From an uncultured Anaerobiospirillum sp. (lineage in GTDB: Bacteria; Pseudomonadota; Gammaproteobacteria; Enterobacterales; Succinivibrionaceae): a stretch of 64,000 nt of DNA. The stretch is from contig CALXNA010000009.1 in NCBI GenBank assembly GCA_944389615.1, forward strand, positions 1-64,000. Reading direction: 5' to 3'. The position numbers and the translations under genes were made by a program. The number at the start of each line of letters is the position of its first letter. Position 1 is the first letter of the stretch. Positions 14,055 through 22,943 of this stretch are shown here, piece by piece. The notes beneath the pieces are model-generated. The model made no database searches, had not been told where the DNA came from, and saw nothing but the letters and a program-made list of their open reading frames with translations.

Positions 14055-14318
14055 GCGTTTCTGGGCCCGGCATTTTGGCCCTTTCCTTTCAGGCCCCTTC
14101 TTTGCGGCCTCCTCTCGTCTGTGCGGCTACTCTGTACAGCCTCTTATCGGCTCCATCGGCGAGCCCTTCCCAGCTCCAGCAGCGAGCCTTCCCCATTCGA
14201 GCAGCCCCTTGCAAAGGGCACAGGCTTTGCCCACAATAAGGCGGTTTGTGTGCCTACGGTTGGTGCGCGTTAGCGCAAGGCCTCGGCGCGACTTTGACAG
14301 CGGTGGAAGGTGACGGAT

Positions 14319-15263
14319 ATGACGTTGGAGCATTTAGCCCAAGACAAGCAACAAGAGCGGCAAACGCAATACATGACGGTAGAGGTCGATGATGCGGCCA
14401 AGCACGCGCAGATGATCTTGCCTGACCTTGCCGCCATGCCCGAGATCAAGCTTGTCGCCTTGGACTTAGATGGCACCACCCTGCGCGAGGACAAGACCTT
14501 CTCGCCGCGCCTGATTGCGGTAATCCACGAGCTGCAGCGCCGTGGCGTCTATGTGGCCATTTGCTCGGGGCGGGCGCCAGAGAGCGTGCAGGGCTTTGCT
14601 CAGATTTTGGGCCTTGAGGGCGGCCACGGCTACTGCATCTGCTTCAATGGCGGCGCCCTCATCAGCCTCAAGGACATCAAGCACGATCTCTTTGTCAGCA
14701 CCTTAAAGGCGCCCGATCTTATCGATATCGAGCATCAGGCCCGCCTCCACGGCTGTGCGATCCACGCTTACAGCACGCGCCGGGTGCTCTTAACCGAGAG
14801 CAACATCAAGTTCACCGAGATGGAGATCGCCGCCTCGATGCAGCCGTTTGAGAAGCTGCTGTTCCCAGATGAGGTCAAGCCGAGCGAGGAGGCCTACAAG
14901 CTCATTGCGGTAGGTGATGCCCCCAAGCTCGATGCCATGCGCTCAGAGCTGCCTGCAGAATTTACCCAGCGCTTTAATATTGCGCGGACGCACCCGAACT
15001 TCCTTGAGTTCATGGCCCACGGCTGCTCGAAGGGCTCCACCTTACATCAGCTCTGCGCCAAGCTCGGCATCAGCACCCAAAACGTGGTGGCCTTTGGCGA
15101 TGCCGAAAACGACATTGAGATGGTGCAAGAGGCCGGAGTCGGCGTCGCCGTGGCCAACGCCATGCCGACCTTAAAGGCCGCCGCGCGCTACCAGACTTAC
15201 AACTACTTAGACGACGGCGTAGCCATCTACTTAGAGCGCCTCTTCGGCCTAAGCGCGCAGTAG
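14319..15263 (+). CDS. Cof-type HAD-IIB phosphatase
   Basis: 314 residues, a HAD subfamily IIB phosphatase like YidA/Cof, acting on sugar phosphates or small phosphorylated metabolites. Motif I is ALDLDGTTLRED near residue 50, motif II CSGRAPESV, and motif IV FGDAENDIEMV near residue 263. The GCSKGSTL lysine motif III lies between them, with the large C2 cap inserted after motif II. About 45 residues precede motif I, longer than usual. ATG 14319 lies eight bases after GGAAGG; the GTG at 14310 overlaps that site and is unlikely. Two broken copies of its 3' end follow immediately. Confidence 0.85.
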   Translation: MTLEHLAQDKQQERQTQYMTVEVDDAAKHAQMILPDLAAMPEIKLVALDLDGTTLREDKTFSPRLIAVIHELQRRGVYVAICSGRAPESVQGFAQILGLEGGHGYCICFNGGALISLKDIKHDLFVSTLKAPDLIDIEHQARLHGCAIHAYSTRRVLLTESNIKFTEMEIAASMQPFEKLLFPDEVKPSEEAYKLIAVGDAPKLDAMRSELPAEFTQRFNIARTHPNFLEFMAHGCSKGSTLHQLCAKLGISTQNVVAFGDAENDIEMVQEAGVGVAVANAMPTLKAAARYQTYNYLDDGVAIYLERLFGLSAQ

Positions 15264-15390
15264 TAATGCGCCTTGGCTCAGCCGAGCCCAGCCTGCTCCC
15301 GCAGCTGCGCTCAAGTCTGCGCCCGCCCCGGCGGGCGTGAGGATGCAGGCCCGCGCTCAAGCCAGCTGACTGGGCTTGCAAGCTTGTTGC

Positions 15391-15480
15391 GATCGCGAAA
15401 ACGACTTTGAGATGGTGCAAGAAGCCGGAGGCGGTGGCGTCGTGGCCAACGCCATGCCGACCTTCAAGGCCGCCGCGCTA
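15391..15480 (+). pseudogene. First partial copy of the Cof-like gene 3' end
   Basis: About 90 bases closely match 15099-15190 inside the intact gene. Translated in the matching frame they give DRENDFEMVQEAGGGG and VANAMPTFKAAAL, recalling the motif IV region DAENDIEMVQEAG. There is no start codon or ribosome site, and the sequence departs from the gene on both sides. Confidence 0.8.
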
Positions 15481-15560
15481 AGGCGTAACTTGCGTCTTGG
15501 ATCAGCCTGCGACCGCCTCTGAGCTCAAGCCGACTGAGTAGGACAGCAAGCTTGTTGCTG

Positions 15561-15655
15561 TGGACGATGGCGAAAACGACATTGAGCTGGTGCAAGAGGC
15601 CGGAGTCGGCGCCGTCGTGGCCAACGCCATGACGACCTTCAAGGCCCCTGCGCTT
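15561..15655 (+). pseudogene. Second partial copy of the Cof-like gene 3' end
   Basis: A further copy of the same segment, reading DDGENDIELVQEAGVG and VANAMTTFKAPALG in frame. It shares upstream sequence (GCAAGCTTGTTGC, CTCAAGCC) with the first partial copy, so a unit of about 170 bases was duplicated after the first copy was made. The rest of 15264-15780 holds GC hairpins of the form GCGGGC...GCCCGC, at about 15330 and 15684, and no other gene. Confidence 0.8.
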
Positions 15656-15709
15656 GGCCAAGCCCCAGCATGCGCTAACAGGTGCGGGCGTGAGGCTGCA
15701 AGCCCGCGC

Positions 15710-15715
15710 TATAAT
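15710..15715 (+). promoter_or_regulatory. Candidate -10 element for the GmrSD-like gene
   Basis: A perfect TATAAT lies 65 bases before the GTG start. It directly follows a GCGGGC/GCCCGC hairpin, and no good -35 is present at the right distance. Confidence 0.4.
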
Positions 15716-15780
15716 GGCAAGTGCCTGCATGGTCATAGGGCAGGTTGGATTGTTGCTGTGGTAGGACGGGAGATGGTGAC

Positions 15781-18102
15781 GTGAATGTCTCTGAGCAAAA
15801 TGTAAGTCATTTTATGTGGGGCGTAGACGGCTACTTCATCCCTTGCTATCAGCGCCATTACTCTTGGGATGAAGAGCAATGTCGCGCTCTCTTCGAGGAC
15901 ATGGTACGGCTCCATCAGCAGCGTGAGCACGATTCTTCGGCAACCCACTTCATTGGAAGTGTGGTGATGCAGCGTTTGCCTGAGGCGCCGTCTTCGATCA
16001 TGGTGATCGATGGCCAGCAACGTCTCACCACCATGTACCTGTTCTATCTAGCATTATCTCGTGCGTTTGACCGAGCAGCTAGGAAAGGGAGTGAAGACAA
16101 GGCTTACACTATCGACTGCTCTAAGTGGGCTCGAACTATAGAACTCAACATTCTTTTTGAGAAAAGTCCAAGTTGCTCGGTAGACTTGAACAGCAAGCAT
16201 CGCTTCACGTTATCGGAGGCTGATCAGCATGCGCTGGATAAGCTCTTCGCGGGCAACGAGGACGAGTTTGTTGCAGATTCACTGTTGACCCGCAACTACC
16301 GTTTGTTCGTGGATTGGATTAGCGCGCAAGAGGACATGTCGCTTCATGCTTTCTACAGGATCCCGGAGAGCTTGATCTTCATCGAAATCGATCTTGAGGC
16401 CAAGGACGACGCGCAGCTCATCTTCGAGTCGCTTAACTCTAAGGGAGTCACTCTTGAGAATGGCGATAAAGTACGTAACTTCCTCTTGATGGGCTTTAAC
16501 TACGAGGATGTTAACCGGCACTATCGTGAGCTCTGGTGTCCGATGGAGCTGAACTGTGCCCATGCCCTTTCATAGTTCATCAAACACTTCCTTGTCCTCA
16601 AACAGGGGCGGGCACCGAGCGAGGACTCGCTCTATGTGAAATTCAAATACTATGTGCAAGGACTGCAGCGTGGCAGCGCCCCGGCTTCTCAGAACCAAGT
16701 CACAGTCGCGGTGTTAGATGAGCTTCTTGCCTACTCCGTGCTCTTTAAGCAGATGCGTGATTGCTCTTATAAGTTGAGCGCGCAGCATGATACCGAGTTG
16801 AGCTTCGGTGAGCGCTCGCAGTTGCAAAAGGCGCTGAACAAAAGTCTGTTTAACTTACAGCAGTTGCCTTACAACGTCCGGACGCCGGTAGTGATGCAGC
16901 TCATGATGCTGCACGTCAAGAATCAGATCAGTGGCACCGAGCTGCTGGAGGCGATGAAGCTGCTGGAGACCTTCTTGTTCCGTCGGTGGGCCTGCGGCTG
17001 GCAGAGCCGTGATCTTAACCGCAAATTCCAATCGATAGCCTACAAGTTAGTTCCTGATGTTAACGGCGGCTGTGATGTGATGCCACTGCTTAAGCGTAGC
17101 TTGTGCTCAGCTGATGAGGGTAAGTGCGCAAGCTCTATGCCTCAAGATGCGGAGTTTGTGCAGGCCTTACAGCATCGAGCCCTCTACAAGAAGTCCAACT
17201 CCAAGAACAGTGCACCTCTTAAGTACATGCTTGAGCGCCTCGAGAATGCTGATAGTCTTGAGACAATCCCTATCGACTCCACCTACAGCATTGAGCACAT
17301 CATGCCGCAGACGCTCACCGCGGAGTGGCGCGCTGAGTTAGGTGCCAATGCCGTATCTATCCATAAAGAGTGGCTCCACCGCTTAGGCAACCTGACGCTG
17401 ACGGCCTATAACAGCAAGTACTCCAACAGCTCCTTCGCCCAGAAGTGCACAATGGAGCATGGCTTTGCCGACAGCTCGCTGCGCCTCAATCGCGACATTG
17501 CCGAGCATGACCACTGGGGGCGACAGGAGATGGAGCAGCGCACAGCAGTGCTGGTAGCCAAGGCCCTCAAGCTTTGGCCGTATCCGGGGGATAGTGTTGA
17601 GAAGTGCGCCGAGCATGTGTCTACACCTGATCCGGGGCCTGCATCTGTTCATGTGCCCGTGTCCGCGCCTACTCCAGTGCCTGAGGTTAAGGATGAGCCT
17701 GAAAGCTTTGATTACTGCTTAGCCGAGGGCGATCTGGATTTGACCGGCACTAAGCTCCGCGGCTATGAGTTCATGGGGCAGCACTACGATGCTAGCAATT
17801 GGGTGCAGCTGCAACGCGACTTGATCCCCCTGATCTATCAGCTCAATCCTGAGCGCCTGCGCTCTTGGCATCAGACTCCATGGGGGCGCTTCAATGTGCT
17901 TGAGCAGTTTATCAAGAGCTCCCGCCTAGACTTCCCGATTGCCCAGAAACGTCCTAATAGTGTGTTCGAGATCGACAAGCAGATCTTCTTCTGCACCCAT
18001 CAGAATGTGCTGACAAAGGTCAATATACTCCAGCAGCTCTTTGAGTTGATGCAAATTGACCCGGCGCAGCTGACGCTGCACCTAGTGCGCAGCAAGGGGT
18101 AA
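15781..18102 (+). pseudogene. GmrSD-like (DUF262/DUF1524) restriction protein interrupted by one amber codon
   Basis: A single reading frame of 774 codons is broken only by TAG at 16573-16575 (codon 265). Frame and homology continue directly after it (FIKHFLVLKQG, then LYVKFKYYV), and an internal ATG at 16636 could restart translation. The N-terminal DUF262 part has CYQRHYSW (about 22-29) and VIDGQQRLTT (about 74-84), the NTP-binding/hydrolysis motifs of GmrS. The second half has the DUF1524 HNH-type nuclease motif IEHIMPQ (about 505) and LGNLTLTAYN, as in GmrD. A C-terminal accessory domain of about 130 residues follows. Type IV GmrSD enzymes cut glucosylated hydroxymethylcytosine phage DNA; whether this one does is unknown. 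GTG 15781 sits eight bases after GGGAG. Codon choice is less biased than in neighbours, suggesting acquired defence DNA. Confidence 0.8.
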
Positions 18103-18377
18103 GAGTAAGCCTGCTTGAGCTGCGCCTCCGACGAAGGTATATGAGCCCATTCGGGGTGAGTACATCAGCCGGGAAGGGCAACGAGCAGCGCCGCGCGGGC
18201 AGGAGAGAAGGGCTCACCGCGGTGCCTGCAGCGCCTGTTTGGCGCAGTCTGCGCCAAGGCAGGCGAAGAGTAAGTCGGTGGGCCGCCGACGAGGGCGCGC
18301 AGACGTGGTGCTAAGCGATTCCTAACTTAGGTTATGGCACAATAGCATGCCTTGTTTGGAATGGAGAGGATGAAACC

Positions 18378-20267
18378 ATGTCTCAGGCACCACAACCTAA
18401 GCTTAAGGAGCGCGCGGACACGCCTGCGGGAGCAGGAGCGTCCGCAGGAGCGACCGCGGGGGCGGGCGCTGCTAGCACGGCGGCGCAGGGCGCAGCGGGC
18501 GGTGCCCGTCCCGTGGACTGCTTGCCGCTGAAGGAGACGCTCCAAGCCTTTTGGGTGATGCTCAAGAGCTATTGGGGCTGTAAGGATAGCCTGAAGTCAT
18601 GGGGCTTGTTGGCCCTCATCGTGGCCCTCACCGGCGGCTCGGTCTACATCGCCACCGCTATCAACTCGTGGTACAAGGTCTTCTGGGATACGATCCAAGA
18701 GTACGATTTGGACGGCTTTAAGTACCAGCTCTTGGTCTTCGTGGGCCTTGCCTCCGTGCATGTATTGGTGTCGGTCTATAACGCTTATTTGAAGTCATGC
18801 CTTGCCATCAATTGGCGTACCTGGCTTACCGGCAAGACGATGGAGCGCTGGCTTGCACGCGACAACTACTACAAGCTCCAGCTGACCGACAAGAACACTG
18901 ATAACCCCGATCAACGTATCGCCGAAGACTTAAACCTCTTCGTCTCCTCGACCATCGTCCTGATTTTGGGCACGGCCACTGACCTGACCATGATGGTGAC
19001 CTTCGGCGTGGTGCTGTGGAACTTGTCCGGCGCCGTCGACATCACGGTCATGGGCTATGAGCTGCACCTGCCTGATGGCTATATGTGCTACTTGGCGCTC
19101 TTGTATGCCATCTTAGGCACGACCTTGACCTTCATCCTAGGTAAGCCGTTAGTGCGCCTGAACTTCCGCCAACAGCGCTACGAAGCTGACTTCCGTTTCT
19201 CGCTGATTCGCGTGCGTGAAAATGGCGAGTCGATCGCCTTGTACCACGGCGAGGCGCAAGAAGGTAAGTACTTGCGCACCAGCTTTGCAAGCCTGGTGGG
19301 CAACTACATCAAGCTCATTGTCTGCACCAAGCGCTTGGGCTTTTTGACTTTGGGCTATGCCCAAACTGCGGTGATATTCCCGATCTTGATCGCAGCTCCC
19401 CTCTACTTTGCCAAGATCATCACCATGGGCTCGATCATGCAGATCAGCTCGGCCTTTGGCCGTGTCCAAGATAGTCTGTCGACCTTGGTCACTAACTTCA
19501 CCGAGTGGGCTTCGTGGAAGTCGGTGGTCGACCGTCTGGCGCTGTTCTATCGCTCGATGGAAGAGGCCGAGGCCATTGAGTGCATCCCAGTGCAGCATGA
19601 CGATGCCGAAGGCATTGCCATCAACCATCTCGAGCTTAAGAGCCCGCGTCAGGTGACCTTGCTCTCGCACTTGGCCCTGAACTTAAAGCAAGGCCAGTCC
19701 CTGCTCATCCGCGGCCCATCGGGCTGTGGTAAGTCGACGCTGCTTAAGGCCATCGCCGGTATTTGGCCTTATGTCCAAGGCGAAGTTCATTACTTAAAGG
19801 AAGGCTCCGCGCTCTTCTTAAGCCAGCGCCCATATCTGCCGCAAGGCACCCTGCGCCAAGCCGCGTACTACCCAGCACCGGTGGCTCCAGCGGAGTCAGA
19901 GCAAGCTTCAGGTCAGTCTGAGCATAGCGTCGAGCATTACTTTAAGTTGGTGGGGCTTGAGCACTTGATTGCGCACTTGGATGAGTCCGACATCTGGTCG
20001 CACATCCTGTCGCTCGGTGAGCAGCAGCGCGTGGCCATTGTTCGCGCCTTGCTCAATCGTCCGGCTATCTTGTTCTTAGACGAAGCGACCTCGGCCATGG
20101 ACGAGCACAATGAGGCCTTTGTCTACGACCTGCTCAAGCAAGAGTTAGGGCAGACCATCATCATTTCGGTCGGCCACCGCTCGACCTTGATCGCCAAGCA
20201 CGATCAGGTCTTAACCTACGAAGGTTCAGGCAGCTACCAGATTGCCGCAAGCGCGAGCATGGCGTAG
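18378..20267 (+). CDS. SbmA/BacA/YddA-family ABC transporter (fused permease and ATPase)
   Basis: 629 residues. An Ala/Gly-rich N-terminus of about 40 residues precedes an ABC_membrane_2-type domain with about six membrane segments (for example SWGLLALIVALTGGSVYIA). Then comes the nucleotide-binding domain: Walker A GPSGCGKST near residue 446, signature LSLGEQQR, and Walker B AILFLDEAT followed by the switch histidine in VGHRS. The family includes YddA and the BacA-like vitamin B12/peptide transporters of the inner membrane. The domain order is permease first. Substrate is unknown. The 275-base gap upstream has no clear promoter. Confidence 0.88.
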   Translation: MSQAPQPKLKERADTPAGAGASAGATAGAGAASTAAQGAAGGARPVDCLPLKETLQAFWVMLKSYWGCKDSLKSWGLLALIVALTGGSVYIATAINSWYKVFWDTIQEYDLDGFKYQLLVFVGLASVHVLVSVYNAYLKSCLAINWRTWLTGKTMERWLARDNYYKLQLTDKNTDNPDQRIAEDLNLFVSSTIVLILGTATDLTMMVTFGVVLWNLSGAVDITVMGYELHLPDGYMCYLALLYAILGTTLTFILGKPLVRLNFRQQRYEADFRFSLIRVRENGESIALYHGEAQEGKYLRTSFASLVGNYIKLIVCTKRLGFLTLGYAQTAVIFPILIAAPLYFAKIITMGSIMQISSAFGRVQDSLSTLVTNFTEWASWKSVVDRLALFYRSMEEAEAIECIPVQHDDAEGIAINHLELKSPRQVTLLSHLALNLKQGQSLLIRGPSGCGKSTLLKAIAGIWPYVQGEVHYLKEGSALFLSQRPYLPQGTLRQAAYYPAPVAPAESEQASGQSEHSVEHYFKLVGLEHLIAHLDESDIWSHILSLGEQQRVAIVRALLNRPAILFLDEATSAMDEHNEAFVYDLLKQELGQTIIISVGHRSTLIAKHDQVLTYEGSGSYQIAASASMA

Positions 20268-22166: not shown

Positions 22167-22943
22167 CTACGCTTTGCTCTGCGGCGGGCTGTCTGCAGTT
22201 GGAGTCTCGGCAGCTTCCTCGGCGTTGGCTGCGACTGAGTTGGCTACGACGGCGTTGGCTGCGACTGAGTTTTTGGTCGCGGTTTCAGTCGGGACGGGGG
22301 TAGCGTCCGTATGGCCTTCGTCAGAGAACTTGTGGAGCTTGCTGTGGAAGCGCTTTTTGAGGTAGACCACCAAGATGACGAGGAAGATGGCGCCTAAGAT
22401 CATATAGATCAGGGTTTGGACGTCCTTGACGTACTCCATGAGGAGATCGAGGTTGTCGGCAAAGAAGTAGCCTAAGTAGACCCAGATCGGCACCGAGATG
22501 AGGGCGGCGAAGCCGTCCATCAAGATGAAGGTGAGATAGGAGATGCGGCGGCTCATGCCCGCCACTAAGAAGATCGGGGAGCGCAGACCCGGCAGGAAGC
22601 GGGCGACAAAGAGCAAGGAGAGGCCGTACTGCTTGAACTTGCGCTGAATGTGCGAAAAGCGCCGGGGCGAGAGGATGCGGCGGAAGGTCTTGATGCGCTG
22701 GATGCGATAGCCGAAGATGCGCCCGGCGAGGAACATGGTGCTATCGCCAATTAAGACACCGGCTAGACCGACGAGGCACATGGTGTGGGGATTGGCCAGA
22801 TCAAGGCCGGAGATGACACCGCCTGAGACTAAGGTGATGTCTTCGGGCACGGGCAGACCAAAACCACATAGAATCAGGATGCCAAAGACGGCAATGTAGC
22901 CGTAGTCAGTAAAGAAGCCGATTAGAAAATCTAGCACAGTCAA
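22167..22943 (-). CDS. DedA-family membrane protein
   Basis: 258 residues. The DedA core is clear: GFGLPVPEDITLV near residue 27, GVLIGDSTMFLAGR, and the signature FVARFLPGLRSPIFLVAGMSR. Several membrane helices follow. DedA proteins are inner-membrane lipid or ion transporters needed for envelope homeostasis. The last 45 residues are hydrophilic and contain repeated VAAN units encoded by a short DNA duplication around 22218-22270. It lies downstream of no partner and is divergent from ftsK. Confidence 0.9.
   Translation of the reverse strand: MTVLDFLIGFFTDYGYIAVFGILILCGFGLPVPEDITLVSGGVISGLDLANPHTMCLVGLAGVLIGDSTMFLAGRIFGYRIQRIKTFRRILSPRRFSHIQRKFKQYGLSLLFVARFLPGLRSPIFLVAGMSRRISYLTFILMDGFAALISVPIWVYLGYFFADNLDLLMEYVKDVQTLIYMILGAIFLVILVVYLKKRFHSKLHKFSDEGHTDATPVPTETATKNSVAANAVVANSVAANAEEAAETPTADSPPQSKA

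Follow-up and report, generated by a model that had tools for sequence, protein, structure and literature searches.

The sequence analysed here, referred to as the window, is a stretch of 64,000 nucleotides from the genome of an uncultured Anaerobiospirillum sp. A single reading frame of its plus strand, which starts with GTG at position 15781 directly behind a GGGAG-like ribosome binding site and runs to position 18102, carries one internal stop, a TAG, and remains open for a further 508 codons beyond it. The features of this locus are compiled in Table 1. The preliminary description of the locus took the frame to be otherwise undamaged, which holds true, as the TAG at codon 265 is the sole in-frame stop. 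It also placed an ATG 60 bases behind the TAG, which has to be corrected, since the in-frame start at this distance is GTG 16636 and the ATG at 16634 belongs to another frame. The gene is preceded by the gene of a Cof-type HAD hydrolase (cof, 14310-15263) and followed by that of an SbmA-like ABC transporter (18378-20267). Between cof and the interrupted gene, two direct partial copies of the cof 3′ end (source 15087-15186) were observed at 15379-15478 and 15554-15653, with an identity of 85-87%; no such additional copies were found in the corresponding intervals of the sister genomes.

Table 1. Positions of the interrupted gene and of its sequence and model features in the window.
Feature	Position	Strand	Remarks
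GmrSD-type single-chain restriction gene, TAG-interrupted	15781..18102	+	774 codons, GTG start
GmrSD_N (DUF262, ParB/Srx-like NTPase part)	15829..16488	+	Pfam PF03235, E 3.6e-34; codons 17-236
DGQQR motif	16009..16023	+	codons 77-81, invariant in alignments
Helix holding the TAG	16567..16605	+	codons 263-275, AlphaFold2, pLDDT about 91-93
In-frame TAG, codon 265	16573..16575	+	
Perfect 6-bp hairpin GAGCGA-GGAC-TCGCTC	16617..16632	+	covers Shine-Dalgarno-like GAGGA
Longest downstream frame from possible GTG restart	16636..18102	+	488 aa
GmrSD_C (DUF1524, HNH nuclease part)	17140..17559	+	Pfam PF07510, E 3e-26; codons 454-593
EHIMPQ motif of HNH nuclease	17293..17310	+	codons 505-510
Folded C-terminal domain	17704..18090	+	codons 642-770, confident model, no Pfam match

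Both Pfam domains score far above the Pfam cut-offs and lie in the same frame, GmrSD_N before the TAG and GmrSD_C after it, which bears out the proposed GmrSD-like identity as well as the proposed separation of the DUF262 part from the nuclease part by the stop codon. The motifs QRxYSW, DGQQR and EHIMPQ and the asparagines downstream of the latter are unbroken, and the columns they occupy show no or almost no variation when 10 and 19 relatives are aligned, so that both catalytic motif sets are preserved, as had been stated initially. An AlphaFold2 model was built from 19 sequences and reached a mean pLDDT of 85.5. In this model, a helical connector comprising approximately codons 241-465 joins the two Pfam domains, in agreement with the α-helical connector of 200-400 residues described for GmrSD enzymes (PMC4619093). 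By its architecture, motifs and fold, the gene is a copy of the GmrSD type, whose enzymes are characterised by an NTP-stimulated cleavage of DNA with modified cytosines. The C-terminal domain is common to the long-form GmrSD relatives; other relatives end in DUF4268, DUF4357 or DUF5655, and SeqA and RAMA were weakly matched in one relative each.

The cof gene and the gene of the SbmA-like transporter adjoin in most of the genus, and the interval between them is a hot spot of GmrSD genes. Its length is about 280-390 bp in three genomes (G001, G005, G006); three others (G007, G002, G008) have about 0.6-1.2 kb there, with no GmrSD gene, and the two flanking genes of G004 are found on different contigs. 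G003 and G009, the genomes nearest to that of the window, contain four GmrSD genes in the interval, two on each of two contig ends, and three GmrSD genes distributed across two contig ends, respectively, as compared to one in the window, where the interval extends from 15264 to 18377. With the window copy, the GmrSD copies of this interval (L106, L107, L108, L109) share about 35-52% identity. Between the genomes, the flanking proteins reach 85-89% identity and the GmrSD proteins at most about 56%, so that the GmrSD copies turn over or evolve rapidly. A second GmrSD gene of the same genome, on contig 18, is uninterrupted and 44% identical to the window copy, and the relatives found in plasmids and viral contigs show 21-33% identity. 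At a site with three to four tandem, strongly diverged GmrSD copies in close relatives, the gain and loss of restriction enzymes can be studied.

The comparison with homologues at codon 265, which had been suggested as a check, yielded a sense codon. In the four nearest relatives the column is occupied by glutamate, encoded three times by GAG and once by GAA, so that one substitution accounts for the TAG. Across nine relatives, the alignment shows E, E, E, E, D, N, R, D and E at this site, which lies directly in front of an invariant phenylalanine. Internal stops occur neither in the approximately 14 GmrSD relatives checked in the bacterial family nor in the 24 from viral contigs. Apparent stops in two relatives (L004, L006) were discarded, as they precede the start codon or follow the terminator and are not part of the coding frames. 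As the position of the stop is held by an ordinary amino acid in the relatives, the gene is most likely a recently inactivated one and not a new split or recoded enzyme. We therefore regard the locus, with a probability of roughly 73%, as a recent nonsense knockout of a chromosomal single-chain restriction gene of the GmrSD type (type IV, modification-dependent). This agrees with one of the readings offered in the preliminary description and is supported by the sense codon in the relatives, the lack of a second lesion in the frame and the retained motifs.

The age of the mutation was estimated with a model of neutral change, in which the limit was set at a 5% chance that 2.3 kb would escape any further stop or frameshift. 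This bound corresponds to about 1% divergence if 10% of the changes are indels and to about 3% if none are, so that the absence of a second lesion puts an upper bound of roughly 1-3% divergence under neutrality on the age; among the relatives found, none that could date the mutation more closely exceeds about 56% identity. Conserved columns are preserved to the same extent before (48/49) and after the TAG (42/43), and there is thus no sign of long decay. Judging from these preserved columns on both sides and from the relatives, in which internal stops do not occur, the interrupted frame is more than a product of chance. In a comparison with the sister copy G003_4, 45 lineage-specific amino acid changes were assigned to the window copy as opposed to 23 in the sister copy (p 0.01), a signal of faster evolution that depends on the outgroup and has a modest p-value. 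The mean BLOSUM score of these changes was -0.09 for the window copy and 0.70 for G003_4 (p 0.06), with a random expectation of -0.40, the substitutions in the window copy thus being the less conservative ones, and in the tree the end branch of the window copy has a length of 0.66 compared to 0.24 for the sister copy. The neighbouring cof gene, used as a control, showed no such difference (8 versus 9 lineage-specific changes). Together, these values suggest a mild relaxation of selection on the lineage of the window copy, but the order of divergence of the codon positions is still 3 > 1 > 2, which fits a gene that was under selection during most of its history.

A sequencing or assembly error, in which case the true gene would have a sense codon and encode a normal single-chain enzyme, is unlikely, although it deserves consideration. 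The lack of a second lesion and the conserved columns on both sides of the TAG would be expected in this case as well, and it has been pointed out that neighbouring GmrS and GmrD entries may reflect sequencing or annotation errors (PMC4619093). On the other hand, when the proteins of the sister genome were aligned to the window (29 genes, about 13,200 codons), two stops were encountered, and the TAG at 16573-16575 is the only clear internal one, which indicates a clean assembly; moreover, the base in question is located in ordinary sequence without a homopolymer. The other stop, in a DedA-like gene (22167-22943), is close to the end of the alignment and therefore probably represents a difference of the gene end relative to the sister copy. 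The proposal of a split enzyme, in which codons 1-264 would form a GmrS-like chain and the frame from GTG 16636 a GmrD-like chain, active or weakened and less toxic, is improbable. In its favour, the stop in GmrS/GmrD of E. coli CT596 arose during cloning and was followed by re-initiation with activity retained (PMC4437046), and in the window an in-frame GTG is available 60 bases past the TAG, with a GAGGA 10 bases ahead of it. However, this GAGGA, the only Shine-Dalgarno-like sequence before the GTG, is buried in a perfect hairpin, and the GTG column is variable in the relatives (Val, Leu, Ala and others) and thus offers no conserved start. In addition, the TAG falls within helix 263-275 and the GTG within helix 281-297 of the connecting bundle, so that neither is positioned at a domain boundary, and all relatives checked have the fused form. 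A natural counterpart of the CT596 case, in which the nonsense mutation would have turned a toxic single-chain GmrSD into two chains with weakened but persisting activity by re-initiation at GTG 16636, appears improbable as well. Points against the knockout are the missing signs of long decay and the chance that re-initiation could still yield the downstream part.

The two remaining readings of the preliminary description, a suppressed stop and a phase-variable mutation, find little in their favour. If a fraction of ribosomes decoded UAG as a sense codon, the 508 open codons past the TAG would be explained, but the genome encodes release factor 1, TAG is the normal terminator in five of the 28 window genes checked, the RNA fold downstream of and around the TAG is ordinary (z -0.49), and in no relative is a TAG found at codon 265. 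The recommended search for an amber suppressor tRNA, carried out as an Rfam search together with individual stretches of the genome and with anticodons assigned by ARAGORN or by eye, gave no CTA anticodon, which would read UAG, among 61 tRNA hits in the genome, a census that is incomplete, as it lacks the tRNAs for Glu and Ile. The assembly from which it was taken (84 contigs, 3.28 Mb) is 95.7% complete, and neither a suppressor tRNA nor a loss of release factor 1 was seen in it; a programmed or suppressed stop is accordingly the most remote of the explanations. Scarcely more probable is a phase-variable switch, of which the TAG would be one state of a reversible mutation. Phase variability is frequent among restriction genes, but a point substitution differs from a slippage event, and neither a slippage tract nor an invertible segment was found: simple repeats are missing from the vicinity of the TAG, the gene as a whole contains no long one, and inverted repeats of at least 25 nt are absent across 13.8-18.8 kb.

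According to the preferred reading of a recent knockout, and provided that the base is real, one nonsense substitution at codon 265 would inactivate the GmrSD-type gene. Translation would end after codon 264 and yield the DUF262 NTPase part with the beginning of the connecting helical bundle. As the HNH nuclease part would be missing from this product, recognition and NTP use would be uncoupled from DNA cleavage, and the product would presumably be inactive. The loss may be tolerated or even favoured, because over-expressed enzymes of this kind damage the host DNA and GmrSD copies are gained and lost at this locus; by analogy, the CT596 precedent offers a reason why a stop codon in a GmrSD gene might be tolerated or favoured. 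While GmrSD genes have a frame that is continuous or can be expressed as two chains, the frame in the window is broken by the TAG at codon 265 and has a weak restart, and for this reason we classify the gene as an interrupted GmrSD member, which is probably inactive. It represents a single further inactivated anti-phage defence gene of a common, known kind and, as a natural example of the stop codon escape known from the cloning of gmrSD, is of modest value.

Among the solved structures, DndI (9jfl, E 1.4e-17) and SspE (7drr, E 2e-13) were the best matches, both at about 16% identity. These phosphorothioate-sensing DUF262-DUF1524 proteins are the nearest solved folds to the window protein. A homologue of the DndC family, which was the only component used to search for a phosphorothioation system, was not detected in the genome, and phosphorothioate sensing of the DndI or SspE kind is thus unsupported. 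BrxU has the DUF262-DUF1524 architecture of the window gene as well (PMC10952713). However, the neighbours of the latter are cof and the gene of the SbmA-like transporter instead of BREX genes, and BrxU was not among the matches in the searches made with the window gene.

The closest parallels are the single-chain enzymes Eco94GmrSD and EcoCT596GmrSD, which likewise consist of DUF262, a helical connector of about 200 residues and a DUF1524 HNH part and share the same motifs. The likeness is one of architecture and motifs, and the window gene differs from both in its interruption by TAG and in its extra C-terminal domain. With regard to the stop itself, a comparable case is GmrS/GmrD of E. coli CT596, the prototype of the two-chain form. 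Naturally a fused gene, it gained a stop codon between DUF262 and DUF1524 when it was cloned, along with a small deletion, on account of the toxicity of the intact version (PMC4437046). In general, over-expression of gmrSD genes is toxic, and there is this earlier case of a stop codon selected in such a gene (PMC4437046); the cloned CT596 version re-initiates after the stop and retains its activity (PMC4437046; PMC4619093). Whereas the CT596 stop is a cloning artefact combined with a deletion and a working re-initiation, the stop in the window is part of a genome assembly, its connector is undeleted, and its re-initiation looks poor.
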